Of a DNA stretch of 64,000 nt, positions 81 through 64,000 are shown piece by piece. Position numbers and translations under genes: made by a program. The notes beneath the pieces were generated by a model. The model was given only the letters and a program-made list of their open reading frames with translations. It ran no database searches and had not been told where the DNA came from. Position 1 is the first letter of the stretch; each line of letters opens with the position of its first letter. The stretch is from assembly GCA_030710605.1 (NCBI GenBank), contig CP092863.1, positions 138,974,994 to 139,038,993 of the forward strand, read 5' to 3'. Source of the DNA: Cordylochernes scorpioides. Its lineage: Eukaryota; Arthropoda; Arachnida; Pseudoscorpiones; Chernetidae.

Positions 81-1531
81 AGCCAAGTTTCTATATCCTT
101 TCCTCAATTTTCTTGAATATGAGATTCAATTGGAAGTTTCGTGATAGCGAACTTTACAGAATATCGTTAATTTTCATTTAATTTGAGCTTGAAATATTTA
201 TGATTATTAAACGAGTCTTTCAAAACGTTCCAAAAGGTTTTTAAAAAATCCATAATTTGGGGCTTTTCATAGTTAAAAAGAGTTTAATGGATTATGATCT
301 TCACAGTACATCTTTACAGATATAGGAGCAGCAAATTTCAAATATTGGGATAGGTAAGAATCTCTTCTTTAGAACATAAAAATATCAAATTAGGAATTTC
401 ACCTATTCAATTGAGATTTTAGCTTTTGTAAAGCCTTGAATATCTTCATGAGAGATCGTGTTGATTTTCACGAGACGCGTGAGTTTTTTTTTTTCTGGCA
501 ATTTTTGAGAAAGTCCGATATTTACATCGTTCAACTATTGAAATCCATAATTAAAGCTCTAATCGCTTAAGATGATATTTCTCCAATTTGAATTATTTAG
601 TATATGATAAAAGTGATATATTTGATGAAATTGAGTGATTCTTTGACATATTGAAGAAGGTGAAAATTCAACTACGTTATGAATTTCACACGTTAATTCC
701 ATTTTTGAAATGGTTTCAAAGAAATTATTGTGCAAATATCAAACCACACCACAATTTTGAGTTTACTCTGTGTCTTCCACGTAAACATTTTCTATATATT
801 CTGCAATAATATTTCTTTAGATAGAGAACATTTCATTTTTTGATGTCACGGACAAGCTTCTACTAGATTGCCTCAATTGATAGTATATTGAGTTTACAGG
901 GAAGCTATTGAGCCACGTTTTGTCATCATGATATCATTTCTGGATGATATTCACGTTGAGAGAAGAATACTCAAGTATTGAATATGGTGATCCAACATTT
1001 TTATTCTATTGATCAACAGAATATCGCTGGTTATCAACCAAGAATCCTTGGAGACATTTGAAAGATTCACCGTTGCACTGATCATCTTGAATGAGCAACT
1101 AGATGCAAACATATTCACTTGTGTGTTAAGACTCAAAGATGTGCAATATCTACTGACGAAATTTTCCAATCGAAGATTTAGAAATGATCATACTTGATGG
1201 CTTTGAAAGGTGCGGCAAATTTAATGTCCGCGCTCTTGATGAAAGAATACATCAAAATATAAAGATCATGATCTTCGATACATCATAAATGATCATTATA
1301 TTGTTTCTTGAAAGAACCAAACGATTCATTGCAATTCTCTAAAGATGTCTACAATGATTTGTACCATTGATTTGGTATATTAAAAGTCATTTGAGTTCAA
1401 TTTGTCATGGTATCTTGATGATGCTTCATTATGCAATACTCAGATTTTGATATCCGAAAAGATGTCTTTTTTCGCGATACTATTGTCTTGGCGTATAAAT
1501 AAAACGTCGGGATCAAGTAAGATGATCTTAC
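81..1531. other. AT-rich left part of unit, no gene recognised
   Basis: Non-repetitive AT-rich sequence present in all four units (17932-19304, 37597-38974, 57288-58702). A short plus-strand open frame at 1009-1197 in unit 1 is interrupted by a one-base deletion in unit 2 and by a stop in the others, so I do not call it a gene. Nothing else is supported here. Confidence 0.6.
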
Positions 1532-1761
1532 ATTTGGTAGGATGCTCGATAAGTGACGACTCAGTTCTTCAAGGCATCGCTGACGATGACGTCCCAATAC
1601 TCGTCAGTCTTGTCTCACAGTGCGATGCCAGTAGGATGGTGAGAGCCGCTGTCCAAACGACTCCAATTCTTCCTGAAATAACAAAATACATTGACTAACT
1701 ATATTTAGCATATATTCAGTCAGAAATACTCATGTAGAATGGCTTTGTTCGAGTTAATTTA

Positions 1762-1948
1762 TACAGTAGAACCTCCATGAGAGGGCACTACCCTCACGCT
1801 AAAGGACACCTCTTTCTATAAAGGACAGCTTTCATTCCCGAAATTATCATTTTTACTAATTAGCAACTCTAAGGTAAGAGGATACTTCTTTCTAAAGAAC
1901 AATTTAGCTCTGAAATTAGGGTATTGTTCTTTACTGAAAAGTTCTGCT
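1762..1948. mobile_element. Pogo/Tc1-like MITE A, degraded
   Basis: Starts tacagtagaacctcc and ends in a decayed inverted copy (aaaagttctgcta). The interior holds ggacacctctttctataaag, typical of this MITE family. Its left half is the site later hit by the solo LTR in units 2-4; here the site is empty (ctttcattcccg). The family name rests on the TIR and on the TA ends. Confidence 0.6.
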
Positions 1949-2432
1949 AAACAAAAACCCTCTCTCTCTATTCCTGAATGGGATTGTTTTTTACCTTAAA
2001 TTATATGATGAAAAGGATTATAATTATTCGAAAAATAATCCATTAAAAACATATGCTTATTATAAATACAATCCTTCAAGTCCAAGCTATGATCTTAGTC
2101 AAAAGGCTGAAAGGCAATTTTTATAAGACTAGAACTCTGTAATCTGATATTGGCTACAGTAATTATATGTAACATAGTATGGTTGATCAACTCAGTTCTA
2201 CTTACAGATAGAAATTTGCCCCGGCGTGTGCCATGCTACAGTTCCGCAAAGACATCGCCGACAAGGATGTCCCCCAATCTTAGCCGGTCTTGTCCCGTGG
2301 TGCTGTTGATGTTAGTGGATGGGTCGCCGCTGCCCAGACGACTCCTGTTGCATTACATAATCTATCTTAAATTTCTTGAGAATTGAATAATAAAATTCAG
2401 TTTTTTCTCAAATATCACAAAATCAATAAATG

Positions 2433-2541
2433 CTTCCATTGCAGTAAGGGCAGTGGAAATTGTTTAATTTCAAAAAGTATCTTACGCGTCTAAAATTGTT
2501 TCTAATTTTCATAACAGATTGCGCGCCAGTGCATCGTAATA
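2433..2541. mobile_element. Small insertion element (109 bp), 9-bp TSD
   Basis: Flanked by caataaatg at 2424-2432 and 2542-2550, and missing from the matching place in units 2-4. Its right end (cataacagattgcgcgcca, then catcgtaata) matches the right end of the 111-bp insertion at 63201-63311. The two are therefore independent insertions of one small family. The class is not known: 8-9 bp TSDs would fit hAT or a short retroelement. Confidence 0.65.
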
Positions 2542-2609
2542 CAATAAATGTTTATAAATAGGAATCAAAAGAGAGAGAGATTCACCTCTAACGTTGGGAA
2601 AAAAGCATT

Positions 2610-3900
2610 TTGGTTCATCACCCCAGCATAGGACGTTAAAGTTATGATTGAAAAATGTTCCACAACGTCAGTTTATGCAGATTAATCCCTAAGCCAGTCT
2701 GTAAACCAAGGTCTTACCTCATGGTGCGGTTGATGTCAGTATATGATGAGGAAGGTCGCTCCTCCCCAGACGACTCTTCCTGCATTACATAATATAACTT
2801 GAACTTCTTGAGATTTGAATTATAAAATTCAGTTTTCAAACATCACTAAATCAAGCAATATTTCTAAACATGTTCTAAACCGTTAAAAACAAATAAATTT
2901 GGTTCATCACTCCAGCATAAGATGCAAATTAAGACAAAAGCCAAGCTGTATACCAAGGTCTTACCTCATGGTGCGGTTGGTGTCAGTAGATAATGAGAAG
3001 GGTCGCTCCTCCCCAGACGACTCCTTCTGCATTACAGAAACTAACTTAAACTTCTTGAGATTTGAATTAGAAAATTCAGTTTTTCTCTCAAACTATTACT
3101 AATTCAATAAATACTTATATACATATACCAAAAAGCGTCACCTCTTCCGTTAAAAAAAAAGTAAAAACAATACATTTTGGTTCATCACTCCAGCGCAGGA
3201 CGTTAAGATAGTGATAAAAATATGTTGCAAAATAGCAGTTTATGCAAATTAAGCACAAAACTGTATACCATGGTTTTCGGTCTTACCTCATAGTGCGGTT
3301 GATGCCAGTAGAAAGGTCGCCGCTGCTCAGACAACTTCTTCCCCCTCCTGCATTACAAAATATAGCTTAGGCTTCTTCTGGTTTGAATTATAGAATTCAT
3401 TTTTCAAATATCATTAAATCAATAAATGTTTATAAATATTTACCAAAAGAGTCACCTCTTCCATTAAAAAACGAAATTAATATAAAAAAAGCTTTTTGGT
3501 TAATCACCCCAACATAAGACGTTAATGTAGTGATAAAAATGATCCAATATACTAATTTATGAAAATTAAGCCCTGAGACAATCTGTATACCAAGATCTTA
3601 CCTCAAGGTGCGGTTGGTGTCAATAAATGTGAGAAAAGTCGCTCCTCCCCAGACGTCTTCTCCTGCATTACAAAATATAACTTAAACTTCTTGAAATATA
3701 AATAAAGAACTACTTATAAACATATATATGGAAAATTGGTACTTATACACATTATCAAAAGAGTCACCTCTACCATTATAAAAAAATATATATTAAAAAC
3801 AAACAGTTACCTTTTGGTTCATCACCCAGGTACAGAATGTTAAAGTGGTGATGAAGAATAAACCACAACACCAGCTTATGCAAATTAAACCAAAAGATAA
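2610..3900. repeat. Tandem 280-320 bp exon-bearing repeats, unit 1
   Basis: Motif ttggttcatcac recurs at about 2610, 2892, 3177, 3499 and 3812. Each unit has the same order: this motif, a gcataggacgttaa-like stretch, ttatgcaaattaa, ctgtatacca, a short minus-strand exon-like block, then an AT-rich tail. Unit 1 holds four short exon-like blocks; units 2-4 hold three. Confidence 0.85.
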
Positions 3901-3906
3901 TCTATA

Positions 3907-4087
3907 GACAGTAGAACTTCTCTTTAGCGCACACCCCGCTAGAGGACACCTCTCCACAAAGGACAGTTTTAATTTGCAGAATTACTATTTTACTATTTAG
4001 CTACTCTCCGGTAAGAGGACACCTCTCCCTAAGGGAGATTTTGGCTCTGCAATTAGATATCCCTTACAGAGAGGTAGTTCTACTGTA
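3907..4087. mobile_element. Pogo-like MITE B, unit 1
   Basis: Terminal inverted repeats gacagtagaac and gttctactgta bound inverted internal pieces (gaggacacctctcc, ctccggtaagaggacacc). It has no coding capacity. Confidence 0.7.
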
Positions 4088-5213
4088 CCATGGTTTAGAA
4101 CTATGACCCTTATCAGGTACAATGGAATTTTCGATTTCATAATATCCTATAAGAGAAATGCCTATTTTAGTACATAAATATCATATCCTACAGCAGGTTT
4201 ATGTTGTATTTTAAACATATAGAGTAATTTAAATATGGTGCTTTAATAAAAAAAACTAGTTATTTGTTCATTAAACGAAAAAACAAGAAATCTATAAATC
4301 ATATTAAAGTATTATCTTGAATTTAATATTTATTATCATTGGTAATATTTTAAAAGGAAACTTTTGGTAGATACCAAGATAGACTGGTACATAAAGTTTA
4401 GTATTCTCGGAGGAAACACCCAAAACATTACAATTCAAAAGTCTGTTTGCGTCATAATACTCATGAAAAAACTTAAGGAAGTAAAGATACTTTGTTGTAG
4501 CCGGTCGTTTGTTATTTGAAAGGAGACAGAGGTTGTTCACACTTGGTTATCTCGTGTTTCTCCAATAAAGGTCACTGTAATATCTTTCAGAGTTATCGTC
4601 TGAATCCCGATATACATGCTGAGAGGTACAACTTCCTTAAGTTTTTGTTCACACTTGGTTATCTCGTGTGTCTTCAATAAAGGTCACTGTAATATATTTC
4701 ATAGTCATTGTCTGAATCCCGATATACATGCTAAAAAGTACAACTTCCTTAAATTTTGTCCATGAATGTATTTAGGCATATACTGATGAAGGCCAAAGCC
4801 TGAAAGCAGTGTAAATAGTCCACATTTCCAAAACATTTAAAATATTAAAAAAGAAGGCTAAGCCTATTCTAATATGATGCTAGCAAACATTTAGTAAAGA
4901 AATGAAGCAATATAGGGAAAATCCATTCTTAAAGCTGCAATTATTTTATTATATTTGCAAATTGTAGGGGAAGACCAAATTTTCTATTTATGCTATTGAA
5001 TTTAGATTATATATAAGTTTCTAAGTATAGTCTTTCTGGTTTTAATACTATATTTCTCTATAATGACATTTTAATTCTTTTAAATTGGACTTATGACCTG
5101 TTTCCATGTTGTGTTGGCCTATAAAGGTTTCTTAGAGATCTTTGGTGTCTGACATCGGTCTAAATAATTGCTATGACAGAGATAACAAAGTGTCATTCAA
5201 CAATGTAGCTGTA
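4088..5213. other. AT-rich intergenic or intronic stretch, unit 1
   Basis: Between MITE B and the 157-nt exon candidate I see only AT-rich sequence and the local duplication at 4533-4757. Relative to units 2-4 about 0.7 kb is missing near 4915; the breakpoint lies in a gggaaaat microhomology. Confidence 0.6.
4533..4757. repeat. Private 112-bp tandem duplication
   Basis: Two copies (4533-4644 and 4645-4757) begin ttgttcacacttggttatct and end acaacttccttaa. Units 2-4 have a single copy, so the duplication belongs to unit 1 or was lost before the other units spread. Confidence 0.85.
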
Positions 5214-5218
5214 CTTAC

Positions 5219-5375
5219 ACATTGAAATATGCCTCGGCATGTGGGCTCACAAGTCCCGTCAGGTAGTGCAGACGAAGACCCCCCCAAATCTTCGTGTGCA
5301 GACTCCACGTTGTGGCGCCATTTGGATGGTAATAGGTTAGGTCGTTGCCCAGACGATACTCGCTCACATCCCCAG
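5219..5375 (-). CDS. Candidate internal exon 6 (157 nt), unit 1
   Basis: On the minus strand the block follows tgcag and is followed by GTAAGTAC, a strong donor. In the phase set by the exon at 5823-6281 (split codon G|CT) it is open, with motifs YRLGNDLTYYHPNG and TKIWGGLRLHYL, ending AEAYFNV. A second frame is also open in this copy, so the frame choice rests on splice phase and on unit 4, where only the first frame stays open to the donor. Base composition is clearly more GC-rich than its flanks. The protein family is not recognised. Confidence 0.5.
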
Positions 5376-5822
5376 CTGCATTACAAAATCTATCTTAAAC
5401 TTTGTTTTTCTGTGAATTTTTATTTGATTTAATATTATTTATTTACTTTTATACATTAAAACGTGACATTATCTTGTAAATTAGTACAAAATAAATTGTC
5501 TATTAAAAATAATCACATTATGGGTAACTATAACAGAATCTTTTTAAAAGTTTGTAATAATTTTAAAGAGTATTATTAAATTTAAATATGAACACTCTCA
5601 AATTTTCTATTATTTAAGAAACTAAAATAAATTTTTAAATATGAAAATAAGGAGAGATTCAGATTTAGTTCTTCTCTCAACAGAATACAAGATCTATCTT
5701 AATTATCGGTAAAATTTAAGGCCTATTCAGAAATCGTTCTTTTGATTGGTTCTTAATTGATTTGACAATTAAAATTATAATAAAATTATTGTTAAGAGAG
5801 AAAAATAAAGAAGATAGCTTAC

Positions 5823-6281
5823 CTGCCCAAAGGACGTGGTGGAGCTCCATGAAGACTAGGGTGTGTTGATGTGCGGGTAAGATGGAAGTCCCGCGCATGT
5901 TATGTGAGCGAATGTTGTACTGTGCTGTTGGACCTAACGCTGTGATAGTGAGGCCCTACAGAAGGGAAAGGACAGAGCCCGATGACCCAAACTCAACATC
6001 TCTGTTGAGCAAGGGCCAGCGGACTTCTGTCTCAACCCAGAAATGTTCTGACGTGTGCCTAGAAAATGTTGGACGGCGCATGTCAGGGTACAGGATGTTG
6101 TCAAGTGAGCCCCCCCCAAATGGGTTCTGGTATGTATACCCTACAATGGAGGAACCCCGGCTCGTCAAACTTAGTGTCGATGGCGTTAAAATATGGAAAT
6201 GGGGAGCCGGGGGTGAGGGGTGTGGGTGGAGGTGTGGCAGGTGGGGTGTGCATGCCCTGTTTGCGTCCTCTCCCCTTAGTC
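5823..6281 (-). pseudogene. Candidate exon 7 (459 nt), unit 1, frameshifted
   Basis: On the minus strand it runs from ggttacag to a GCAG|GTAAGC donor. The likely frame reads PYFNAIDTKFDEPGFLHC, later NILYPDMRRPTF and HFWVETEVRWPLLNRDV, then an in-frame TAG (5956-5958), then GPTITALGPTAQ and HTLVFMELHHVLWAG. An eight-C run at about 6110 (seven in units 2-4) shifts the frame, making this exon 459 instead of 458 nt. Of seven single-base differences from unit 2, three are silent in this frame and none in the rival open frame, which is weak support. The TAG follows a pyrimidine stretch (cttctgtag), so it may instead be an intron end. Function unknown. Confidence 0.5.
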
Positions 6282-6407
6282 CTGTAACCACAGGAAGAAA
6301 ACTGTCAGTCCAGTACTGTAATTTATCAATATATTCCTATCAGTATATTCCCCCCACTTTGGTAAACTTTAATAGAGCATTCACTCTCTTTCAATGTTTT
6401 CTGTTGG

Positions 6408-6585
6408 TAGAGTAGAACCTCTCAATAAAGGACATCTAATTGCAGATCCAAAGTGTCCTTTAGGGAGAGGTGTCCTCTTACTGTGAGTTGCTAAATTGTA
6501 AAAATTGTAATTTTGCAAATGAAAACTGTTCTTTGTAGAGAGGTGTCCGCTAGCGGGTTGTCCGCTAAAGGGAGGTTCTACTGTA
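6408..6585. mobile_element. Pogo-like MITE C, unit 1
   Basis: Begins tagagtagaacctctc and ends gggaggttctactgta, an inverted pair. The interior contains gtcctttagggagaggtgtc, the same sub-unit that is amplified in MITE E. Confidence 0.75.
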
Positions 6586-8513
6586 TTTTGTTATGGTGAT
6601 GTAGCAATATACTGCGTTACTGAAAATATTATCTCTGTAAGTATTTATTGATCATAAATGAAGGCGATGTGAAATGGACAATTGCAAAAATATAACTCAA
6701 TATTTTACACAAGTGAGTTTCAACCACTTTGTATATTTACACAATGTTGCAATTTTATTTTCATCCATGCCATTATATCATCTCCGCCTTGTTAATCTAC
6801 CATGTTTGCTATGTTAATAAAAATGAAATTGAAAAAGTGTTGAAAAGTGAAGTATGTATGTGTGTTTGTTTAGAGTAAATGTGTTTTCCTTTTATTGTGG
6901 ACACAGTTCCTATATATATAATTATTCTAGCCAAAATATGAAATTTTCTGTATATTTATTATTTTATAAACTTTAAATAAATATTATTGAATGTGTAGCC
7001 GCTTTGAATACAATTCTATAAGGGAACAGAAATTATAATACCCGTGTTTTTATTTATAATTAGCTTTTATTTTTTATTTTTCATTTGCAGACTCCATAGT
7101 AAAAATACATGTATAGGACTATACTCGTATGTCTTAATAATGGCTTCTGTGTGTGTTTTGTGTTAAATAATATTAAATAAATAAAATATATATTAGTGCT
7201 GAAATTTTTATGTCTGTTATACCCGGTGTGAATAGAAATAATATTTTTTAACTGGATATTATACTTGTTATGATTATATTTATGAATAATATTCGAGGCA
7301 GTAAAATACAATAATAACTATCCTATAACCAAATGTAAAAAATCATTCTAATGCAAAACATTTAATCGCGTTTCTATATTTTATTAATAATAATTTAGGA
7401 AATAATTAAAGAAGTAACGTGTGTACCATTCACATAAGAAGACATCCCAATGTAAATATAAATGCTAATTATGTTGAATTTATTTTGTTTTCTATAGTGT
7501 ATATATAAATTATGCATTTACTTTAATATATCGCTTGTAAATATATATTTTTGTTTATTTTTGTCGATAAAATTTTTTCAATATTTAAAAATTATTTCCT
7601 TAAATTTGTAAGGCAACGTATATATGTATGTAGAATTTTTATATGAAACTTTATTTTTACACACAATTTTATTATAATTTTTAATTAGTCATCACTAGTA
7701 TTAGAAGTGTAATCAATGCATTAATTTTTCAACTTTGAGTTCTTTCAAACATTATGGTTTAAATATAGAAAATATGGAATTGATCATCCTAAATAGTTAT
7801 TGTAAAATGTTTAAAAATTATGCCCCCAAATGATTATTATTTTTATATTTATTATATTTCTTTTAAGGTTTGCATCAATTTATAATAATTTTAGAATTGA
7901 ATATCTTTGAAAATAATTCTTGAAAAACAAACAAAAATGTGTGATTTTATATTGGAATCAGAATCATGTATAAATGTTGAATTTGTATTTTTTGAAATAT
8001 TTCTAAAAGTTTCTATGATTTTTCTATCTTCGTTGTTGAATTAAGTTTGCTCAAAGCTGAGAATAGGCAATGTTTCACTTACTTCTTCCGTCTAAATATC
8101 TTACAGAAGCTGAAACAGCCCATTTTGAATTCGCTTTTAATGTTCGCTTTGATCGTTAGTTTGCTTGCTCGCTTGGAAGATGCTTGCTCGCTCGCTTATT
8201 TGATTATTGTGATCTCCTGGTGACAATCAAGTCCTGACATAACTCTCTTTTTAGATGAAAACATCAGAATTCCACAAATAAATATCCTTTTATTCAAATT
8301 ATATTAAAAAGGAACTTATCCCTGGAAGCCTGATATATTTTAAACCATATTTGGGGAAGAACTTTGCTCGATGCATTACCTTGAAATTATATGTATGTAC
8401 TACTACAGACCTATAAGCTTATTACCACAGGTTCACTAAACAACCTTTAGCTGTCTTCTATATTAAATGTAGGGTATATCCCAAACCAACCCAATACAAT
8501 AGTAAAGCAGTCT
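6586..8513. other. AT-rich spacer, unit 1
   Basis: Mostly AT-rich sequence without a supported gene. Near 7040 it lacks about 1.2 kb that units 2 and 3 hold (a SINE among it), and at 7345-7360 it keeps the empty site of the 292-bp GC-rich insertion. A change from diverged to near-identical, relative to unit 2, occurs at about 8450. Confidence 0.6.
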
Positions 8514-8637
8514 AGAGCGCCATCTAGTGGAGCAAAAATAAACTAACGTTTATTTAACTTGCTCCGTGATATTTGGCCTCCCCCCCCCCCCCAACCCATA
8601 AACGTTAGATTATTTTTGCTCCACTAGATGGCGCTCT
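8514..8637. repeat. 39-bp inverted repeat with poly-C loop, unit 1
   Basis: Arms 8514-8552 and 8599-8637 are inverted copies with a single mismatch (core gcgccatctagtggagc). The 46-bp spacer holds a long C run. The arm motif gatggcgct also ends the small element at 63201. It may be a foldback or MITE-like element; no clear TSD was found. Confidence 0.8.
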
Positions 8638-8763
8638 GCCATCTAAAAAGCACATGTGCATGTGGTCAGGATATGCTTTCTTTATTTTTAATATCAACAC
8701 CTGACCCACTTATTTATTATTTTTTAAAATTGTTTTTCCATGTGTTAAGTGTATTTACGCAAA

Positions 8764-9627
8764 TTTGGCCTTAAATACCCATTTCTTGGTTTCTCAAGAG
8801 GCCTCTGGGATCAAAAATCTTTTTGGTCGCAGTGGTACAGCCTACTCCACGCTGACGAGCGCCAACAGCGCGGAGGCAGCCCGAGCCTCCCTGGAAATGC
8901 ATCGAAGAAATGGAGATCAACTGTTTTCATGTATTGTCACTGGAGATGAAAGCTGGGTGCATCATTCAACTCCAGAAACAAAACGACAAAGCATGGTGTG
9001 GAAGAAGCCTGAGGAAAGTACACCAAAAAAGGGGAAGGTCTCAATCTCTGCAGGCAAAGTTATGGCTATCGTCTTTTGGGACTGTAAGGGTGTTTTATTG
9101 GTTGACTATCTGCCCCCAAACACTACGGTTAACGCTGCGAGGTACTGCGAAGTCCTCACTAAACTCAGAGCTGCAATAAAACGTAAACGTCCTGGAATTT
9201 TGTCTCGGAAAGTGTTACTCGTCCTTGACAATGCTCGCCCTCACGCAGCTCGAACGACCCAAACGTTGGTGGAAAACTTCAAATGGGAAATTTTCACACA
9301 TCCACCTTATTCTCCAGATCTTTCTCCAAGCAACTTCCATCTTTTTCCAGCACTCAAGTTTCACCTTGGAGGGAAGCAATTTGCGAAGTGCATGATGAAG
9401 TGCAGGCGGAGGCGAACCACTGGCTACGAAGACAGGACACGGCTTGGTACAACAGTGGAATAAAAAAATTGCTACAACGGTACCAAAAATGTTTGGACAG
9501 AAATGGTGATTATGCAGAGAAGTAGTCTACGAGTTGTATAATGAAAATAAAATAACTGCATAATTGTAAATAATGTTGTTAATTTGTTAAAAAAATAGGG
9601 AAACTTATTTATTGGATGGCCCTCGTA
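8764..9627 (+). pseudogene. 5'-truncated mariner transposase relic, unit 1
   Basis: The C-terminal catalytic part of a Tc1/mariner transposase, recognisable from about 8848. VTGDESWVHH carries the first Asp (8945-8947) and LDNARPHAA the second (9227-9229). The third catalytic position, 34 residues later, is Asn (AAC 9332-9334, PYSPDLSPSNFHLF) instead of the Asp usual in DD34D mariners. The N-terminal DNA-binding domain and the 5' TIR are absent. A frameshift near 9393 puts the normal C-terminal end (WYNSGIKKLLQRYQKCLDR) in another frame. The 3' TIR (cttatttattggatggccct, then cgta) closes the element at 9627. Non-functional. Confidence 0.9.
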
Positions 9628-10015
9628 GGTAAAAATCGAAGACTATCCAAAACACCTGCAAGAAAAGCATCTGTCAACAATTAAGTGAACATTCAAAAAG
9701 GCCGAGCTTGTCGGCATAAGTGAGAGACATGAGTACCAACATAAAGCCACAAAAAGATCTAAATTCGAATATACGTAACCCGCGAAAATTCAAAATTCGC
9801 GATACTTTTTGAACACACCTCGTATATATTACTTGTTACCACAGAGTGTGTGTAAGCTCGCAGGTAAATAGGCGCTAACTGAAAGAAAAAAGTTCCTTTG
9901 TTCAATATTAGTTTCCCGTTTATATTTTGTTCTCTCTTTTGTAAATCAATAAATATAATGTTTAATTAATATTTTTTGGAATCAGTTTCATTGAAAATTC
10001 TAAGCAAAGTCAACA
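9628..10015. other. Spacer between mariner and truncated SINE, unit 1
   Basis: No gene. It contains a small inverted pair (cgcgaaaattcaaaattcgcg region at about 9781-9802) followed by acacctcgtata, which resembles another mariner-type end, and the phrase gtgtgtaagctcgcaggtaaat, repeated in near-identical form at about 10289. Confidence 0.4.
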
Positions 10016-10258
10016 GAATTCCGCATTGGGCACTTTTTTTGCTGAAAAAAAATTGCTCTACTGCCCCTCGATTTTTGTAATCTTTTTTATTCAATCCAAT
10101 TTTTATAATATATTTTTATTACCTAAAAATAGTATCAGTATAAGATCCAGTTGTAATACTGTGGTTATAATTCGCACTGTGCAAGACATATGCTGTTTTG
10201 ATATTCCAAGATTACAGACAACAACATGGTAATAATAAATTGTGCATGCTTTATTGTG
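10016..10258 (+). mobile_element. 5'-truncated SINE (body only), unit 1
   Basis: Matches the body of the full SINE at 25557-25860 in unit 2 (atagtatcagtataagatcc, ataataaattgtgcatgctt). The tRNA-like head is missing apart from its last bases (gcattgggcac). Confidence 0.65.
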
Positions 10259-10306
10259 TATAAAATGTATCTGTTGTTTTCACAGAATGTGTGTAAGCTC
10301 ACAGGT

Positions 10307-10432
10307 AAATGGTGATTATGTATAGAAGTAGTCTATGAGTTGTAAAATTGAAATATAATAACTGCATAATTGTAAATAATGTTGTTTATTTATTAAAAAA
10401 TAAGGAAACCTATTTATTGGACGCCCCTCGTA
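10307..10432 (+). mobile_element. Second mariner 3'-end fragment, unit 1
   Basis: About 125 bp equivalent to the last part of the mariner relic upstream (ggtgattatgtatagaagtag to tattggacgcccctcgta). The TIR here (gacgcccctcgta) is closer to the usual mariner form than that at 9627. Only the 3' terminal part is present. Confidence 0.75.
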
Positions 10433-10502
10433 TATATATGTGGTACAATTATATTGTTAAGTAGCTCTGCAACTCCGGTCACAAGAGGCCCCATGGGACA
10501 CC

Positions 10503-10700: not shown

Positions 10701-10801
10701 TATTTTGGCGGAGACGCTGGGTAACGTGACGGAAACTTCGAAGAAGTCGATGTCTACAGGGACGTGAACCAATTCTTGAACTTTTGCCACAACGTATAAA
10801 A

Positions 10802-53188: not shown

Positions 53189-53427
53189 CCCCCTCTAACC
53201 CTAATCCTTCCATCTAAAATGGCAGAGAATGTGTTCTAAGGTAATTTTTATAGATTGAATATTTTGGCTAATAGAGAATTCTAAATAAAATTTGATAAAT
53301 CTTCCAAATTGTATGATTTGATCTGTGAAATTTGCATAAGCTTGATATATCTGTTATTCAGCTATTATGCAGTCATTAATTTCTAAGATGTTGTTCATTT
53401 ATACAGCCCAATAACGTACCATCTATA

Positions 53428-53607
53428 TACATTAGAACCTCCATGAGAAGACACTCCAGCTAGAGGACACCTCTCTATAAAGGACAGTTTTCATTGTCAG
53501 AATTACCATTTTTACTATTTAGCAACTCTCTGGTAAGAGGACACCTCTTCATAAAGGACACTTTTGCTCTTCAATTAGGTGTTGTCCTTTACAGGGAGGA
53601 GGTATAC
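53428..53607. mobile_element. Pogo-like MITE D, unit 3
   Basis: Equivalent of 14021-14202. Confidence 0.65.
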
Positions 53608-54106
53608 CAAATGAAAACACAGAGTTTCTTTCACAAACAAATCAAACCTCTACTGTCCTTACTGGGTTGAAAAAATACTGAAAGGGCCTGGCTCATCAAT
53701 GGTGAACTCTCCCAGAGGTTTCGCCAATTTAATCTACCAGACAGCTTGTTTAGAGCTCTAATACTGTATTGGATCATTCTGATTATATATGCTACACTGA
53801 AGGGTGGAATCTTAGAAATGGTATTGTAGCAAACTATGGACATAAGCTTTTAGGACAGTAGAATTACATATCTATATTTGCATCGATTGCTATTTCACAA
53901 ACAATAAGGACAAGGCCAGTTAGGTTGTTCATTTATTAAGGTTTCTCTGAGATGATCAAGGTTTTAAATGACATCTCTGCCTTTTTTTTTGAACATTTTG
54001 TACTTTGAATATTATTACCCTAACATTTTGTGAGTATTTTTAGCATTAATCGCATTTAAAAATTGGATATATAGTACGAGTTAAAAGGCAATCCATTAAA
54101 TATAAT

Positions 54107-54748
54107 TACAGTAGAACTACCTCTCTGTAAAGGACAACACCTAGTTACAGGGCCAAAGTGTCCTTTAGGGAGAGGTGTTCTCTTACCAGAGAGTTGCTAT
54201 AATAGAACTACCGCTCTGTAAAGGACAACACATAGGTACAGAGCCAAAGTGTCCTTTAGAGAGAGATGTCCTCTTGCCAGAGGGTTGATACAGTAGAACT
54301 ACCTCTCTGTAAAGGACAACACCTAGTTACAGAGCCAAAGTGTCCTTTAGGGAGAGATGTCCTCTTACCAGAGAGCAGCTACAATAGAACTACCTCTCTG
54401 TAAAGGACAACACCTAGTTACAGAGCCAAAGTGTCCTTTAGGAAGAGGTGTCCTCTTACCAGAGAGTTGCTACAGTAGATCTACCTCTCTAAAAAGGAGA
54501 ACACCTAGTTACAGAGCCAAAGTGTCCTTTAGGGAGAGATGTCCTCTTACCAGAGAGTTGCTAGAGTAGAACTACCTCTCTCTAAAAGACAATACCTAGT
54601 TGCAGAGTGAAAGTGTCCTTTAAAGAGAGGTGTCCTCTTACCAGAGAGTTAATGAATAGTAGAAATGGTAATTTTTCAAATGAAACTGTACTTTATAGAG
54701 AGGTGTCCTCTAGAGTGAGTGTCCTCTCATGGAGTATGTTCTACTGTA
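54107..54748. mobile_element. Internally amplified MITE E, six units, unit 3
   Basis: Six 91-bp units (about 54107, 54198, 54289, 54380, 54471, 54562) instead of seven, with a different mix of unit variants. Confidence 0.85.
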
Positions 54749-54855
54749 TACTGTTTTTAGGTTCTCTCTTTAATTGAACATCACAAGTTACAAAATGATT
54801 CCTTAGTAATTCCCCCCTCATCTTTTACCTTTTGACTTACCCCAAGTTTTTATAT

Positions 54856-55018
54856 GGTACAGACCATGATAATCATGGTGGGTAGATGTTGGCGACTGCT
54901 TTTAATGTAAGTGTACCACATGTCTACATAGGTAGAAAGCATTTTTCACTTACAAATATGCTTGTTAGCCCTGTTTGGTTACTTGCACTCACTGTTGTGG
55001 TTGGACTTTTGCAAGAAG
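54856..55018 (-). mobile_element. Headless SINE body, type 1, unit 3
   Basis: Equivalent of 15537-15702. Confidence 0.65.
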
Positions 55019-55035
55019 TTAATAAGAGGTTATAA

Positions 55036-55070
55036 ACACAAGGTAATAAGACCAGATTATTACCTTGTGT
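55036..55070. repeat. Perfect hairpin, unit 3
   Basis: Same arms as 15719-15753, although a base next to the hairpin differs. Confidence 0.8.
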
Positions 55071-55409
55071 TTAAAATCTATAATCCAAATTGTACCTTAT
55101 CATTAATAAGAGGTTGTCTCTTGTGTAAGAGATGACAGCCAGAGATCTACAAGACTGGGTAGGTGAATATAAAAGAAAACGTGATGGTTTGTTAAAATAA
55201 TTACAAAAGCATATATCCCCAAAATATTTTTTATTCTCATTTACAAAAAAATGAAGTTTTATTTACAAAGATGTTTTCTTGAATTCCTGTGGTATCCAGG
55301 AGAGGTGATGACAGGTGTTCCAGGATCATTCAAACAATCCTATACTGGAAATGGGGCAGTTCTAGTGGCTGTTTCTTGCCTGGAATATGTAGCAATCAAT
55401 AGAGTTTAT

Positions 55410-55770
55410 CCCAACTAATAGAATGGATTTTTGGGATCACATAAGAATTAATAGCAATGTGAAGTAAGGAATACAGAGAGGATTGCATTCAATAGCAATT
55501 GTTGGGAATGGCCAGCTGATGGCAGGCATTGAATAATGATGGGAATATGATATACATAGTAATGTGGGGATGGGTAACTGATGGGCACCATTGACGAAAG
55601 CTGGAAACATGGTATTCAATAGAAATTGTTGGGAATAGTCATATCATGGCAGGCATTGAAGAAGCTGGGAATATGGTATTGATAGCAATGTAGGAATTCT
55701 CACCATTGAAGAAGCTAGGAATATGATATTCAGAGTAATGTACGATAGGAAAATTACAATTGTGACAGTT
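55410..55770. repeat. Degenerate 57-bp-type repeats, unit 3
   Basis: Equivalent of 16090-16453. Confidence 0.6.
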
Positions 55771-56432
55771 GTTGATAGTTTGGTATGCGAACAGGCGTTA
55801 CGATCGTTGATAGTTTGGTATGCGAGCAAACGTTACAATCGTTGATAGTTTGGTATGCGAGCAAGCGTTACAATCGTTGATAGTTTGGCATGCGAGCAAG
55901 CGTTAAAATGGTTGATAGTTTGGTATGAGAGCAAGCGTTACAATCGTTGATAGTTTGGTATGCGAGCAAGCATTACAATCATTGATAGTTTGGTATGCGA
56001 GCAAGCGTTGCAATCGTTGATAGTTTGGTATGCGAGCAAGCGTTACAATCGTTGATAGTTTGGTATGCGAGCAAGCGTTACAATCGTTGATAGTCTGGTA
56101 TGCGAACAAGCGTTACAATCGTTGATAGTTTGGTATGCGAGTAAGCGTTACAATCGTTGATAGTTTGGTATGCGAGCAAGCTTTACAATCGTTGATAGTT
56201 TGGTGTGAGAACAAGCGTTACAATCGTTGATAGTTTGGTTTTCATTAGTGCTGTAAAGACCAGGATATCCTAAAGGATATTTGGTCATCAGTTGGTGATA
56301 TCTGTCGATCAAAAGATCTAGCCCGAGGGCGCAAGTAGTTTGGTATGCGAGCAAGCGTTACAATCGTTGATAGTTTGGTATGTGAGCAAGCGTTACAATC
56401 GTTGATAGTTTGGTATGCGAGCAAGCGTTACA
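55771..56432. repeat. 35-bp minisatellite with 96-bp interruption, unit 3
   Basis: About 16 units of the 35-bp repeat, interrupted at 56240-56335 by unrelated sequence. The interrupted unit resumes at agtttggtatgcg. Confidence 0.9.
56240..56335. other. 96-bp foreign segment inside minisatellite
   Basis: Not similar to the 35-bp unit. It includes an imperfect inverted pair (gaccaggatatcct and aggatatttggtc). It is absent from units 1 and 2, and about two repeat units are missing around it. Confidence 0.7.
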
Positions 56433-56602
56433 AATCAAACTGATCAGTGAGTTTACTAAATATATGTGCAGAATTCCTCTTTATAGATCGGTCTTAATAT
56501 GTGGTTATATATGAAGATTCGGTAAGTGATGGAAAATATTTAAAAAAAAATATTTGAAACATAGCATTCATAGTAATGTGAGTATGGTTTACATTCAATT
56601 AT

Positions 56603-57287
56603 TTTGGGAACATGGTATTCAATAGCATTGTGGGCAGATGATGGGGGGAATCAAAGGATGCTGGGAACATGGTATTCAATAGCATTGTGGGCAGTTGATG
56701 GGGTGAATCAAAGGATGCTGGGAACATGGGGTATTCAATAGCATTGTGGGCAGCTGATGGGGGGAATCAAAGGATGCTGTGAAAATGGCTTTCAATAGTA
56801 TTGTGGGCAGCTGATGGGGGGAATCAAATGATGCTGGGAACATGGCATTCAATAGCATTGTAGGCAGCTGATGGGGAGAATCAAAGGATGCTGGGAACAT
56901 GGTATACAATAGTATTGTGGGCAGCTGATGGGGCGAATCAAAGGATGCTGGGAACATGGCATTCAATAGAAGTATGGGCAGTTGATGGGGGAAATCAAAG
57001 GATGCTGGGAACATGGTATTCAATAGCATTGTGGGCAGCTGATGGGGCGAATCAAAGGATGCTGGGAACATGGTATTCAATGGTATTGTGGGCAGCTGAT
57101 GGGGAGAATCAAAGGATGCTGGGAACATGGTATTCAATAGTATTGTGAGCAACTGTTGGGGGGAATCAAAGGATGCTGAGAACATGGTATTCAATAGTAT
57201 TGTGGGCAGCTGATGGGGGGAATTAAAGGATGCTGGAAAATGGCATTCAATAGCATTGTGGGCAGCTGATGGGGGGAATCAAAGGAT
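56603..57287. repeat. 57-bp minisatellite, unit 3
   Basis: Twelve units as in unit 1, mostly without the indels of unit 2. A 2-base gain (acatggggtattc) is at about 56727. Confidence 0.9.
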
Positions 57288-58932
57288 AGCCAAGTTTCGA
57301 AATCCTTTATTCAATCTTCTTGAATATGAAATTCAATTGGAAGTTTCGTGATAGCAAACTTCACAGAATATCATGATATTTGCATTTATTTTGACGCTTG
57401 TAATAATTTCTGATTATCAAAAGAGTGTTTCAAACTGTGCCAAAAGGTTAAAAAAATCCATAAAGTGGGGCTTTTCATAGTCAAAAAGAGTTTAATGGAT
57501 TATGATCTATACAGTACATTTCCACAGATTAGGAGCTGCAAATTTCAAATATTGGGATAGTTTAATCTCATCTTTAGAACATAAAAAATATCAAATTAGC
57601 AATTTTCTCCATTCAATTGAGATTTTAGCTTTTGAAAAGCCTTCAATATCTTCATGAGAGATCGTGTTGATTTTCACGAGACGCGTGAGTTTAATTTTTC
57701 TGGCAATTTTTGAGAAAATCCAATATTTTACATCGTTCAACTATTGAAATACATAATTAAAGCTTTAATCGCTTAAGATGGGATTTCTCCAATTTGAATT
57801 ATTCAGTATTTGATAAAAAAAAGTCTTATATTTGATGAAATTGAGTGATTCTTTGACATAAAAGGAGGCGAAAATTCAATTATGTTGTGAATTCATACGT
57901 TCATTCTTTTTTGAAATGGTTTCAAAGAAATTATTGTGCAAATATCAAACCACGCCAACATTTTGAGCTTCTCCGTGTCTTACACGTTAAAATTTTCTAT
58001 ATATTCTGCAATAATATTTCTACAGATAGAGAACATTTCATTCTTTGATGTCACTGACAAACTTCCACTAGAATGCTTCAATTGTTAGTATATTGAGTTT
58101 ACAGGGAAGCTTTTGAGCCACGTTTTATAACCATGATATCATTTCTGGATCATTTCCACATTGAAAGAAGAATACTCAAGTATTGAATATGGCTGATCCC
58201 ACATATTTATTCTATTGATCAACAGAATATTGCTGGTTCTCGACAAAGAATCCTTGGAAAATTTGAAAGATTCACTGTTGTACTGATCATCTTGAGTGAG
58301 CAACTAGATACAAACACATTCACTTGTGTATTAAGACTCACAGATGTGCAATATCTGCTGAAGACAATTTCCAATCAATGATTTAGCAACGATCATACTT
58401 GATGGCTTGAAAGGTGCGGCAAATTGAATACTCGCGGTCTTGAAGAATACATCAAAATATAAAGATCATTATATTGTTTCTTGAAAGAAGCAAACGATTC
58501 ATTTCCATTTTTTTTTCTGAAGACATCTACAATGCTCAATACGTTGCTTTGTCATATTACAATTCATTTGAGTTCAAATCGTCATGATATCTTGATAATG
58601 CTTCAATAAGCAATGTTCATATTTTGATATCCGAAAAGATGTCTTCGCGATACTATTGTTCGACGTATAAACAGAACGTCTGGATCAAGTAAGATGATCT
58701 TATGTTGGTAAGATGCTCGATAAGTGACGATTCCGTTCTTCAAGGCATCGCTGACGAAGACGCTCCAATCTCCGCCAGTCTTGTCTCACAGTGAGATGCC
58801 AGTAGGATGGTGAGAGCCGCTGCCCAAATGACTCCAACTCCTCCTGAAATAACAAAATACATTGGCTAACTATGTTTAACATATATTTAGTCAGAAATAC
58901 TCATGTAGAATAGCTTTCTTTGAGTTTATTTA

Positions 58933-59345
58933 TATAATAGAACCTTCATTGGAGGGCACTACCCTCACGCTAGAAGACACCTCTTTCTATAAAGGACAGC
59001 TTTCATTTGTGGGGGCCGAGAGACTTCCTTCCAGCCTGCTGGGATGACAGACCACGCCGTCAACAAACATACAAGCGGGGCCATAAAATAGGAGATGACC
59101 ACCGCGGCGCGGCAGATCGGCGGAAGCCAACAGAACCAGAATAGACATTCTAGGGTGTTGTCCTCTTTGTCTTCCTCTGAAAATGTAGCTAATAAGTAAT
59201 ACCAATAAAACACTAACTTTGAAATACTTTCTGAGCCATCGCTAGACTAATAAATCGACACACCACACATTCCCGAAATTACCATTTTTACTAATTAGCA
59301 ACTCTTAGGTAATAGGATACTTCTATCTAAAGCACTATTTGCACC
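58933..59345. mobile_element. MITE A split by a solo LTR, unit 4
   Basis: Same arrangement as 19534-19945. Confidence 0.55.
59008..59267. mobile_element. Solo LTR (260 bp), 4-bp TSD, unit 4
   Basis: Same insertion and CATT flanks as at 19609-19868. Confidence 0.85.
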
Positions 59346-59855
59346 TATTCTCGGATGATTTTTTACCTCAAATTTTATGATTATAATTTTTCGAAAATGA
59401 TTCTATTTTAAAAACATGCTTAATATAAAGGCTACCTTCAAGTCCAAGCTATACTTTGATCTTAATCAAAAGGCAGAAAATCAATTTTTAAAAGACTAGA
59501 ACTCTGGTATCTGATATTGGCCACAGTGATTATATGTAACATAGTATGGTTTTGATCAACTCAGTTCTACTTACAGATAGAAATTTGCCCCGGCGTGTGC
59601 CATGCTACAATTTCGCAAGGTCATTGCCGACAAGGATGTCCCCAAATCTTTTCCGGTCTTGTCCCGTGGTGCGGTTGATGTTAGTAGACGTGTCGCCGCT
59701 GCTCAGACGACTCCTCCTGCATTACAAAATCTAACTTAAGTTTATTGAGATTTAAATTAGAAAATCCAGTTTTTCAAATATCACTAAATCAAACAATATT
59801 TCTAAACATGTACCAAAATGGCATATCTACCGTTGAAAAACATTAAAATAAAGCA

Positions 59856-60918
59856 TTTTGGTTCATCACTCCAGCATAGGACGTTAAGTTAGTGAAAAAA
59901 AATAATCCACAACACCCGTTTATGCAAATTAAAACAAACCTAAGACAAGCTGTATACCAAGGTCTTACCTCATGGTACGGTTGGTATCAGTATATGATGA
60001 GAAGGGTCGCTCCTCCCCAGACGACTCCTTCTGCATTACATAATATAACTTAAACTTCTTAAGATTTGAATTAGAAAATTCAGTTTCTCAAACTATTACT
60101 AATTCAATAAATACTTATAAACATATACCAAAAAGTGGCACCTCTTACTTAAAAATATATATATATCAAAACAATGCATTTTGGTTTATCACTCTAGCAC
60201 AGGACGTTAAGATAGTGATAAAATTGTTCCAAAATATACACGTTTATGCAAATTAAGCCAAAAGCTGTATACGATGGTTTTCGGTCTTACCTCATTGTGC
60301 GGTTGGTGTCAGTAGATGTATAGAAAGGTCGCCGCTGCCCAGACGACTCCTTGCCCCTCCTGCATTACAAAATATAGCTTAGGCTTCTTCTGGTTTGAAT
60401 TATAAAATTCAGTTTTCAAATATCACTGATTCAATCAATGTTTATAAACATGTACCAAAAGAGTCACCTCTTCCATTAAAAAACAAAATTAATATTTAAA
60501 AAAAAAAAAACATTTCGGTTCATCATCCCAGCATAAGACGTTAATATTGAGTTGAAAATGATCCAAAATACCAATTTATGCTAATTAAGCTCTAATACAA
60601 TCTGTATACCACGGTCTTACCTCAAGGTGCGGTTGGTGTCAGTAAATGTGAGAAAAGTCGCTCCTCCCCAGGCGATTTCTTCCTGCATTACAAAATCTAA
60701 CATAAGCTTCTTTAAATATAAATAAAGAACTATTCATAAACATATATATGGAAAATTGGTACTTATAAACATGCACGAAAAAGTCACCTATACCGTTTAA
60801 AAAAAAACATTAAAAACAAAGTCTTTTGGTTCATCATCCAGGTACAGAACGTTAAGGAAGTGAAAAAGAATAAACCACAACACCAGTTTATGCAAATTAA
60901 ACCAAAAGATAATCTATA
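59856..60918. repeat. Tandem 300-340 bp exon-bearing repeats, unit 4
   Basis: Three exon-bearing units as in units 2 and 3. Confidence 0.85.
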
Positions 60919-61102
60919 TACAGTAAAACTTTACTTTAGCAGACCCCTGCTAGAAGACACCTCTCCACAAAGGACAGTTTTTAGTTACAAAATTATTATT
61001 TTTACTATTTAGCAACTCTCCAGTAAGAGGACACCTCTCCCTAAAGGACACTTTGGCTCTGCAATTAGGTGTTGTCCTTTACAGAGAGGTAGTTCTACTG
61101 TA
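60919..61102. mobile_element. Pogo-like MITE B, unit 4
   Basis: Same TIRs as 21519-21700; the internal part (ggtgttgtcctttacag) is a different variant. Confidence 0.7.
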
Positions 61103-61984
61103 CCATGGTTTCGAACTATGACCCTCATCAAGTACAATGGAAGTTTTGATTTTATAACATCCTACGAGAGGATGTTTTTAACAGGAGAGAAATGCCTCTT
61201 TTAGTACATAAATACCATATCCTACAGCGGGTTTATGTTGTATTTTAAACATATAGAGTAATTTAAAACATGGTGCTTTAATTTAAAAAAAAAACTAGTT
61301 AATAGTCCATTAAGCTAATGAACAAGAGAGAGAGAAATCTATAAATCATTTTTAAATTTTATTAAAATTTTATCTTGATAATAATTTTTATTATCATTGG
61401 TAATATTTTAAACAGAAACTTTTGATATCTAGACTGGTACATAAAGTTTAGTATTTTCGGAGGAAACATCTAAAACATTACAATTTAAAACTCTGTTTGC
61501 GTCATAATACTCATGAAAAAACTTAAGGAAGTGGAGAGACTTTGTTGTCGCCGGTCGTTTGTTATTTGGAAGTAGACAGAGGTTGTTTACACTTGGTTAC
61601 TCGTATGTCTTCAATAAAGGTCACTGTAATATCTTTCAGAGTTATTGTCTGAATCCCGATATACATGCTAAAAGGTACAACTTCCTAAAGTTTTATCCAT
61701 GAGTATATATATGCATATATACTGATGAAGGCCAAAGCTTGAAACTACTGTCAATAGTTCACCTTTCCAAAACTTTTAAAATATTACATATGGGGGCTAA
61801 GCACATTCTAAGACAACGTTAGCAAACATTTAGTAAAGAAATGAATCGTTTTATAGGGAAAATGAAATAACAAAATATTGAAAGAAATAACTGTATTTAT
61901 GATTTTTTTTTAAATTTATGGACGTTTTATCTTAATAAAATATTACATTACTCTGCAATAAGGTATCTTTATCACATTACAATA

Positions 61985-62530
61985 TACAACAATAACAAGA
62001 TTTTGAGTCCAGATGAGATTTGTCAAGTACTTTTTTAAATTTATTAATCAACCGATATTGAAATATTTGCGCTTTATTACAGAGGAAACAAACAAAACTA
62101 CAAATTAAAACTTAAAAATATTGTAGTACTTCGATGGAACACAAATATCTTAAATTTTTAATTGCCTTTGAGTAAAATAAACAAATTCTTTGAGTATTGA
62201 GAATTCCTCTAAGGTCATATTTAAAGAAAAAATAATGTAAGGAAAGAGATAGCTATAAATTAGACTAGACCCGTGATAAAATCATTGCAAGACTAGTGAA
62301 AATACAACAATAGCAAGATTTTGAGTCTAGATGAGTTTAGTGTAGAACTTCGGTGGAACACAATTATCTTAAATTTATTAATTGCCTTTGAATAAAATAA
62401 ATAAAGCCTTTGGATATTTAGAGAACGCTCCTCTACGTTCCTATTTAAATAAAAAATAATTTAAGGAGAGAGATATCTAAAACCTAGACTAGACTCGTGA
62501 TACAATCATTGCAGGGCTAGGTAAAATCCA
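61985..62530. repeat. Two diverged tandem repeats, unit 4
   Basis: Equivalent of 22548-23105, more diverged; second copy from about 62303. Confidence 0.75.
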
Positions 62531-62825
62531 TTCTTAAAACTGATATTATTTTATTATATTAACAAATCATAGGGGAAGATCAATTTTTTTCTATTTATAT
62601 TATTAAATTTAGATCATATAAAAGTTTCTAAGTATAGCCTTTCTGGTTTTGATACTATATTTCTCTATAATGTCACTTTAATTCTTTTAAATTAGACTTA
62701 TGACCTGTTTCCATGTTGTGTTGGCCTATGAAGGTTTCTTAGAGATCTTTGGTGTCTGATATTGATCTAAATTATTGCTATGACAGAGATAACAAAGTAT
62801 CATTCAACAATGTAGATGTACTTAC

Positions 62826-62982
62826 ACATTGAAATATGCCTCAGCAAGTGGGCTCACAAGTCCCGTCAGGTAGTGCAGACAAAGAGCCCCCCAAATCTTC
62901 GTCTGCAGAACCCACGTTGTGGCGCCACTTGGATGGTAATAGGTTAGGTCGTGGCCCAGACGACACTCGCTCACTCCCCCAG
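62826..62982 (-). CDS. Candidate internal exon 6 (157 nt), unit 4
   Basis: Same length as in unit 1, with a strong donor (GTAAGTAC) and acceptor (cgcag). In the phase set by exon 7 it is open throughout (YYHPSGATTW, TKIWGALCLHYL, AEAYFNV), while the rival frame meets a stop near the end. This is the best evidence for the frame choice. Product unrecognised. Confidence 0.5.
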
Positions 62983-63200
62983 CTGCGTTACAAAATCTAT
63001 CTTAACACTAGTTTTTCTCTCTGTGAATTTTTATTTATATTAGTATCATTTATTTATACTTTTTTGATACATTTAAAACGTAACATTATCTTGTAAAATA
63101 GTACAAATTAAACTGTTCATTAAAAATAATCACATTATGAGTAAATATACCAGAATATTTTTTAAGTTTCTGATAGTTTTCAAAGAGTAATATTAAATTT

Positions 63201-63311
63201 ATAAAACTATTTTAGAGGCGTAATATTCTTTTTAAAATTTTAAAAAGAATATTACGCCTCTAAAATAGTTTTATAATTTGATAACAGATGGCGCTCTAGT
63301 ACATCGTAATA
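63201..63311. mobile_element. Small insertion element (111 bp), 8-bp TSD, with perfect palindrome
   Basis: Flanked by ttaaattt (63193-63200 and 63312-63319); units 1-3 have the empty site. A 78-bp perfect palindrome (63199-63276, centre between 63237 and 63238) makes up most of it. It ends gataacagatggcgctctag then tacatcgtaata, homologous to the end of the 109-bp insertion at 2433-2541. Confidence 0.7.
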
Positions 63312-63559
63312 TTAAATTTAAATATGAATACACTCAAATTTTCTATTATCTAAGAGAAACTAAAATAAATTTTAATATCAAAATAAGGAGAGATCCAGAT
63401 TTAGCTCTTCTCTCAACAGAATACAAATTCTATCATAGATATCAGTAAAATTTAGGGCCTATTCAGAAATCGTTCTTTTAATTGGTTCTTAATTGATTAT
63501 ACAATTAATATTATAATAAAGATTATTATTAAGAGAGAAAAATAAAGGATATAGCTTAC

Positions 63560-64000
63560 CTGCCCAAAGGACGTGGTGGTGCTCCATGAAGACTAGGGTG
63601 TGTTGATGTGCGGGTAAGATGGAAGTCCCGCGCATGTTATGTGAGCGAATGTTGTACTGTGCTGTTGGACCTAACGCTGTGATAGTGGGGCCCTACAGAA
63701 GGGAAGGGACAGAGCCCGATGACCCAAACTCAACATCTCTGTTGAGCAAGGGCCAGCGGACTTCTGTCTCAACCCAGAAATGTTCTGACGTGTGCCTAGA
63801 AAATGTTGGACGGCGCATGTCAGTGTGCAGGGTGTTGTCAAGTGAGCCCCCCCAAATGGGTTCTGGGATGTATACCCTACAATGGAGGAACCCCGGCTCA
63901 TCAAACTTAGTGTCGATGGCGTTTAAAGTATGGAAATGGGGAGCCAGGGGTGAGGTGTGTGGGTGGAGGTGTGGCAGGTGGGGTGTGTATGCCCTGTTTG
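63560..64000 (-). pseudogene. Exon 7 candidate, unit 4, partial and frameshifted
   Basis: Donor at 63555-63559 and the frame with the shared TAG as in other units, with seven C in the run. An extra T at about 63923 (gcgtttaaag) breaks the frame at the PYFN position. The acceptor lies beyond the window. Confidence 0.5.

Follow-up and report, generated by a model that had tools for sequence, protein, structure and literature searches.

What is encoded by an array of 18-20 kb units that repeat head to tail and carry exon-like segments on the minus strand is the question raised by a stretch of 64,000 nucleotides from the pseudoscorpion Cordylochernes scorpioides (C1:138974994-139038993, C1 denoting contig CP092863.1 of a genome of 2,619,359,433 bases in 24 contigs; hereafter "the window"). 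Comparison of sequences within the genome suggests, with a probability of roughly 0.68, that the window belongs to a tandem gene array with one minus-strand gene per unit, in which the gene is offset against the unit borders: a cluster of small leader exons would be spliced over a long intron to a coding exon that lies 12-26 kb downstream, in the next unit.

Extent and organisation of the array

Self-comparison of the window, the check proposed in a preliminary description of this DNA, was run and displays the repeat. Positions 7345-34930 match 27070-54650 with 98.4% identity over 27,718 aligned columns at a shift of 19,725, and the length and identity of this match exclude a chance resemblance. 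Positions 1-626 correspond to 17851-18476, hence position 81 is equivalent to 17931, and the repeat finder places the end of a 57-bp satellite immediately before each of the borders at 17932, 37597 and 57288. The window thus opens with the last 80 bases of a preceding unit, followed by unit A (81-17931, 17.85 kb, delimited by self-comparison and satellite ends) and, delimited by self-comparison, unit B (17932-37596, 19,665 bp), unit C (37597-57287, 19,691 bp) and unit D (57288-64000, cut by the window end). The head-to-tail arrangement, the unit size, the orientation and the start inside another copy, all claimed in the preliminary description, are borne out. Unit A is a mosaic: the region 1-7037 is ~85-92% identical to the other units and the remainder ~97-98%. 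Its identity to units B and C switches near 7.0-7.3 kb (1-7037 versus 7345-17931), and this interval is likely to be an exchange point between unit types.

The array reaches far beyond the window, which, according to searches with pieces of the unit, forms the right-hand end of a main array at C1:138.42-139.04 Mb; further unit copies were found at C1:142.28, C3:85, C12:50 and C12:75 Mb. In the genome searches only the best candidates were scored (40 of 176, 150 of 428, 40 of 3929 and 40 of 312), and the copy counts given below are therefore lower bounds. The sequence examined beyond the window comprised 200 kb from the left part of the main array, the search tables and short loci. Neighbouring units on the minus strand are spaced 16.0-31.8 kb apart, and such variation of unit length within the one assembly makes copy-number change plausible. 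To the left of 138.5128 Mb, copies are found on the opposite strand. This switch, outside the window, should not be read as biology, because it falls exactly at a gap of 100 N (C1:138512837-138512936), and it may be a scaffolding error.

A coding exon under purifying selection

The longest conserved block of the unit is a coding exon, located in unit B at 24004-24461 on the minus strand (458 nt) and bounded by the acceptor TTACAG/GA and the donor CAG/GTAAGC (the slash marks the exon boundary). Its frame (24460-24140, 107 codons) has no methionine near its own start and ends at a TAG stop codon (24139-24137), and 133 nt of conserved non-coding exon separate the stop from the donor. The corresponding minus-strand exon is open in unit C (43669-44126) and broken in unit A (5826-6281) and in unit D (63558-64000, truncated where the window stops), the low end being approximate in both. 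When unit B is compared with diverged copies, the region 24012-24531 exhibits 1.4% substitutions and 0.2% indels, as against unit means of 9.2% and 2.3% per site; five further conserved stretches, of 60-80 bp each, were found in the same comparison.

An alignment was made of 23 loci, of which 20 were taken from the table of the protein search described below; the window and two others made up the rest. The acceptor and the donor are kept across all of them, and the intron sequence beyond diverges. In 13 selected pairs, a normalised ratio of non-silent to silent differences (N/S) of 0.39 was obtained for the frame closed by the conserved stop, with 226, 232 and 346 differences at the three codon positions, while the other two frames of the same strand give 1.21 and 1.54 before the stop and the antisense frames 0.47 (this one shares the silent positions), 1.63 and 1.70. 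Past the stop all six frames range from 0.71 to 1.09, and the coding frame (0.79; 104, 108 and 110 differences) displays no codon pattern. Before the stop, the gaps between three families of sequences all have lengths divisible by three; past it, some do not. Within the array, the minus-strand frame 24140-24484 gives a normalised N/S of 0.30. The frame is shifted in three of the 23 loci (L041, L047 and L049), and a fourth, L029 (C16:40154989), has lost the conserved stop, so that its frame runs to 212 codons. The protein of the coding exon is under purifying selection, and divergence at silent sites is low as well. The minus-strand exons of the preliminary description are consequently real as conserved blocks bounded by splice sites, one of them protein-coding by codon statistics, and its overall interpretation holds for the array, the unit size, the orientation and the exons; the expectation of "rapid gene evolution" does not hold, the coding exon being the longest conserved block of the unit and subject to purifying selection.

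A protein search of the genome with the window frame as a query (150 scored of 428 candidates) returned many copies open at 113-115 codons. In a recount of these matches, where a locus is called "open" if 113 or more of the 115 residues match without a break, coding-exon loci number at least 30 in the main array (C1:138.4-139.04 Mb; 22 open), at least 14 at C1:152 Mb (9 open), at least 28 at C6:29.7-30.3 Mb (25 open) and at least 16 at C11:28.1-28.6 Mb (10 open). With a query of the type found on C16, 114 of the best 150 of 422 candidates lie on that contig, 112 of the 114 without a stop in the match. Among the best copies listed, identity to the window protein is 97-100% in its own array, ~90% at C1:152 Mb, 85% on C6, 83% on C11 and 49% on C16.

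None of 12 aligned members matched any Pfam family at E<=1. The best PDB match had an E-value of 0.69 with the single frame, and the family profile gave none up to E 10; in viral and prokaryote contig collections 75 and 72 pattern matches were obtained and none was confirmed, other arthropods lying outside the scope of these searches. Pfam analysis of 20 frames from unit B reported transposon domains and nothing else credible. A match of the stop-lost C16 copy to Herpes_PAP (E-value 0.0026, below the curated cut-off) was dropped; this domain was not seen in the 12 aligned members, among which the stop-lost copy was not included. The structure predicted for the window protein alone was too poor for a fold search (mean predicted local distance difference test score, pLDDT, of 49).

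Leader exons and a proposed gene model

Past the coding exon, the minus strand carries in order an exon of 155-159 nt (E2), a series of exons of 60-69 nt and sometimes one of 139-142 nt, which share the acceptor GTAATGCAG and a GTAAG donor; the leader exons were searched for with scripts that looked for this acceptor and its near variants. The 60-69-nt exons make up the ~320-bp repeats reported by the repeat finder. In unit B (all coordinates on the minus strand), E2 occupies 23400-23554 (155 nt; acceptor GTAATGCAG, donor GTAAGT) and contains a motif resembling a primer-binding site, and the short leaders lie at 21221-21281 (ending TTGAG/GTAAGA), 20892-20960 (ending ATGAG/GTAAGA, with the ATG in the frame of the coding exon) and 20570-20631 (ending TTGAG). 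In unit C, E2 lies at 43063-43218 and is followed by short leaders at 40890-40949 (TTGAG), 40560-40628 (ATG in frame; its presumed partner is the unit B coding exon) and 40240-40300 (TTGAG). The three short leaders of unit D (59969-60682, namely 60621-60682 with TTG, and 60291-60359 and 59969-60030 with ATG) are the presumed partners of the unit C coding exon; those of unit A span 2718-3662 (3602-3662 with TTG, 2965-3026 and 2718-2779 with ATG). Units D and A also contain a long leader of 142 nt with two in-frame ATG codons, at 59575-59716 and 2206-2347, respectively. Further, weaker leader-like blocks are visible at ~18.7-19.5 kb of the window, in unit B.

Among 35 short leaders from the fetched units, the last 20 nt and the donor are conserved at 0.91-0.97 and the deeper intron at 0.54-0.66. 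Twenty-one of them end in ATGAG, in every case in the phase of the coding exon, and no out-of-phase ATG occurs in this class. All six long leaders have two in-phase ATG codons, and one of the six has an additional ATG out of phase. The 23-base leader end was found at 128 places of the genome with at most 2 mismatches, and its reversed control at 0. Exact matches account for 73 of these places: 65 in the main array (36 with ATG, 29 with TTG) and 8 elsewhere, at C1:142.29, C3:85, C12:50 and C12:75 Mb.

Leaders and coding exons alternate. For 28 of the 30 main-array coding exons, leader matches were detected upstream without another coding exon in between, the closest of them 11.8-26.2 kb away. 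The two coding exons that lack leaders stand at opposite ends of the array and have broken frames; the rightmost is that of unit D, for which no upstream leader was found among the matches listed. The 28 with leaders comprise 22 open and 6 broken copies (Fisher p 0.064; in this count a copy open from residue 3 was scored as open and a copy with TAA as broken). At the left edge, direct comparison of the adjoining 25 kb revealed no leader or coding sequence. The alternation, together with the array edges, would therefore place the gene across the unit border. A unit on C6 (~12.3 kb, ~59-75% DNA identity) has its elements in the order seen in the window: a coding exon, E2, leader-like blocks, a satellite related to a 35-bp satellite of the window, blocks that correspond to window positions 35.8-36.0, 27.7-28.0 and 26.4-26.5 kb, and then another coding exon; it departs from the window in that the 23.0-23.2-kb block lies elsewhere and the 22.1-kb repeat is inverted and multiplied.

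In the gene model that we favour, the leaders of unit C would join the coding exon of unit B and those of unit D the coding exon of unit C, with the satellites and the transposon insertions falling in the long intron. The leader would supply the start codon (ATG AG/G ACT AAG, read as M-R-T-K), and the predicted product would consist of M-R and 107 residues (~109 aa, no named family), with N-termini that differ from leader to leader. Unequal exchange may multiply and remove units, gene conversion and purifying selection would keep the coding exon alike, and the many copies are probably needed for dosage.

The part assigned to gene conversion draws on 15 copies from the main array. They differ by 0.43% at codon positions 1 and 2 and by 2.57% at position 3 (third positions mix silent and non-silent sites, so this is not a pure silent rate), by 1.98% at the 132 sites past the stop, and by 9.9 and 6.6% in the two flanks. 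Distances measured on the exon do not correlate with those of the flanks (Spearman -0.03, 105 dependent pairs), and 31 of 39 exon variants are singletons, as against 49 of 76 flank variants that are shared. The simplest reading is gene conversion limited to about the exon. A constraint on the exon at the RNA level is a possible alternative to conversion; a search for RNA structure past the stop gave 4 pairs and no covariation.

Counter-evidence and alternative explanations

Several observations weigh against this model. Fourteen of the 35 short leaders end in TTGAG and have no ATG, and the agreement in ATG phase does not amount to 27 independent events, because the leaders are related by duplication. 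In the C6 unit, one long leader has two out-of-phase ATG codons beside two in-phase ones, and another leader has its ATG out of phase only (a third forms an ATG across the junction, as judged by eye). E2 has no in-phase ATG and is negative in the codon test, an earlier codon-like count for it not having been upheld, and the 450 bp before it contain no clear promoter island. As a candidate poly(A) signal before E2, an AATAAA near 23621 occurs in 16 of 16 copies, but in AT-rich sequence. Eight of the 30 main-array coding exons are broken, and the link between a lost leader and a broken edge copy rests on two cases. At the right edge no leader was found among the best 40 of 312 candidates, nor any exact leader end beyond 139.0357 Mb. 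Finally, the conserved donor 133 nt past the stop ends the coding exon, which is therefore probably not the last exon.

This donor is also an argument for a reading that we consider unlikely, according to which the coding exon is real but the leaders are not part of its gene, being either a separate non-coding RNA or untranslated 3' exons that belong to the gene before it, and the exon with the true start escaped detection. An E2-like motif ~450-610 bp past the coding exon in 5 of the 23 loci (the window included; several loci are short) and the DNA from the coding exon to E2, still alignable between C1 and C6, are consistent with it. Against it stand the ATG codons, which lie in frame and at a conserved position in 21 of the 35 short leaders and in all six long ones, with none out of phase in the short class, and no other shared upstream coding exon was found between the arrays. 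The same donor could instead be spliced to the leaders 450 bp further on, and these in turn to the next coding exon, so that the tail of each gene would be the head of the next. Such chain splicing, taken jointly with multiplied leaders that choose N-termini and exon-sized gene conversion that keeps the array copies alike, is in our estimation distinctly unlikely; if the reading held, it would represent a novel arrangement of array genes.

It is very doubtful that the unit is a cassette derived from a retroelement, in which leaders stemming from the leader of a long terminal repeat (LTR) element, with its primer-binding site and splice donor, would drive a captured gene. The idea arises from the E2 exons of the four window units, each of which contains a motif resembling TGGCGCCACAACGTGGGG (4 matches versus 0.01 expected); this motif recurs at loci on C6, C8 and C12, and we take it to match lysine transfer RNA (tRNA-Lys). 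It arises also from the 17-mer TGGCGCCCAACGTGGGG, of which the genome has 739 copies (the reversed control has 0) and which is embedded, at 6 of 6 sampled sites, in what resembles one dispersed repeat family. However, the flanks of that repeat are unlike the leader exons (by eye), the unit has no LTR pair or pol gene of its own, and scored matches to leader DNA are confined almost entirely to these arrays (best 40 of 312). The motif in E2 has an extra base, and no tRNA was found in six loci checked. The unit as a whole was considered as an LTR retroelement and rejected, since the one LTR pair found is an insertion present in only some units; for other LTR pairs, the search consisted of the self-comparison and the repeat finder. 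At the sampled TGGCGCCCAACGTGGGG sites (L053-L058) the motif is continued by CTCGAA in 5 of 6.

A non-coding or pseudogene array, whose block would be kept for reasons of RNA or DNA with an incidental open frame, appears very improbable. The broken copies and the antisense frame at 0.47 would fit it, as would third positions and a post-stop part ~2.5-5x less diverged than the flanks; the codon-position pattern confined to the part before the stop, the inter-family gaps that respect the triplet only there, and the lack of covarying structure past the stop speak against it. As for the false joining of haplotypes, which the preliminary description had named as a danger, or a single unit falsely repeated by the assembler, the 100-N gap inside the array exactly at the strand switch would be in its favour, but the window is free of N, its units differ by ~2-15%, an LTR insertion is common to some units only, and a unit with blocks in matching order exists on another chromosome, which renders an artefact within the window exceedingly improbable.

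Relation to known tandem gene arrays

Similar units head to tail and a coding sequence under purifying selection characterise a tandem multicopy gene array, and the conserved coding exon rules out a gene-free satellite or macrosatellite. This is a known kind of organisation, and the closest case found is human TSPY on the Y chromosome. The TSPY report gives units of 20.4 kb in ~35 tandem copies accompanied by annotated pseudogenes, and describes purifying selection and lower divergence in the coding region than in the introns (PMC3924835). The C. scorpioides array resembles it in units of ~20 kb, copy number, purifying selection and an exon less diverged than the introns. The protein is unrelated (no Pfam family in any of the 12 members, TSPY being a Pfam-known family), and unlike TSPY the copies form clusters on several chromosomes, the leaders and the coding exon lie in neighbouring units, and the leaders are multiplied. 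Macrosatellites with an open frame, such as D4Z4/DUX4, likewise consist of long tandem units that include a gene; D4Z4 units are ~3.3 kb long, and the units described here hold introns, satellites and transposons and vary in length. Tandem gene arrays of trypanosomes, which are transcribed polycistronically, are comparable in having many similar genes in one direction; they differ in that cis-splicing is predicted here and polycistronic transcription is not indicated.

We take as new the gene family itself, the apparent division of each gene between two units, the multiplication of exons with a start codon and the restriction of homogenisation to the exon, on a literature search that was not family-specific, the family being nameless. 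It would be a large family, in clusters of tens to ~100 copies, in which one exon appears homogenised as its own introns drift. The array is a sizeable and unambiguous example of gene amplification that allows gene conversion to be tested against selection inside one genome, and it poses the question of why a small protein should be needed in so many copies.

Other features of the unit and its genome

The satellites of the unit were delimited with the repeat finder. The 35-bp satellite (~18 copies at 36142-36767; also 16454-17080 and 55771-56433) would sit within the predicted long intron; the 57-bp satellite (12 copies at 36933-37596; also 17250-17931 and 56605-57287) is the one that precedes the unit borders. 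The 91-bp satellite (6-7 copies at 34392-35021; also 14698-15332 and 54107-54650) has similar single or partial copies dispersed in the unit, including near 24600 and 33900. Rfam and tRNA searches of the window gave no matches.

An LTR remnant with 203-bp LTRs that are 91-92% alike occupies 30207-32862 in unit B (LTR pair 30207-30409 and 32660-32862), 49902-52564 in unit C and 10502-13164 in unit A, with gag and protease frames identified by Pfam (gag below the cut-off). Its position is shared by units A, B and C and by a further unit near 138.47 Mb, and it is absent from the other fetched units; being common to only some units, it marks a recently amplified subset. A fragment of a mariner transposase (PF01359, Pfam E-value 4e-23) lies on the plus strand at 28456-29166, and DNA matching it occurs in several other units. 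The LTR pair and the mariner fragment are insertions.

Apart from this array, PF00379, which had no match in 14 control genomes, has at least 150 matches in the present genome (best 150 of 333), with long clusters at C10:97.4-99.1, C12:63.0-64.6, C13:8.1-8.4 and C23:7.1-7.5 Mb. Such numbers of this chitin-binding, cuticle-type domain mark arthropods.

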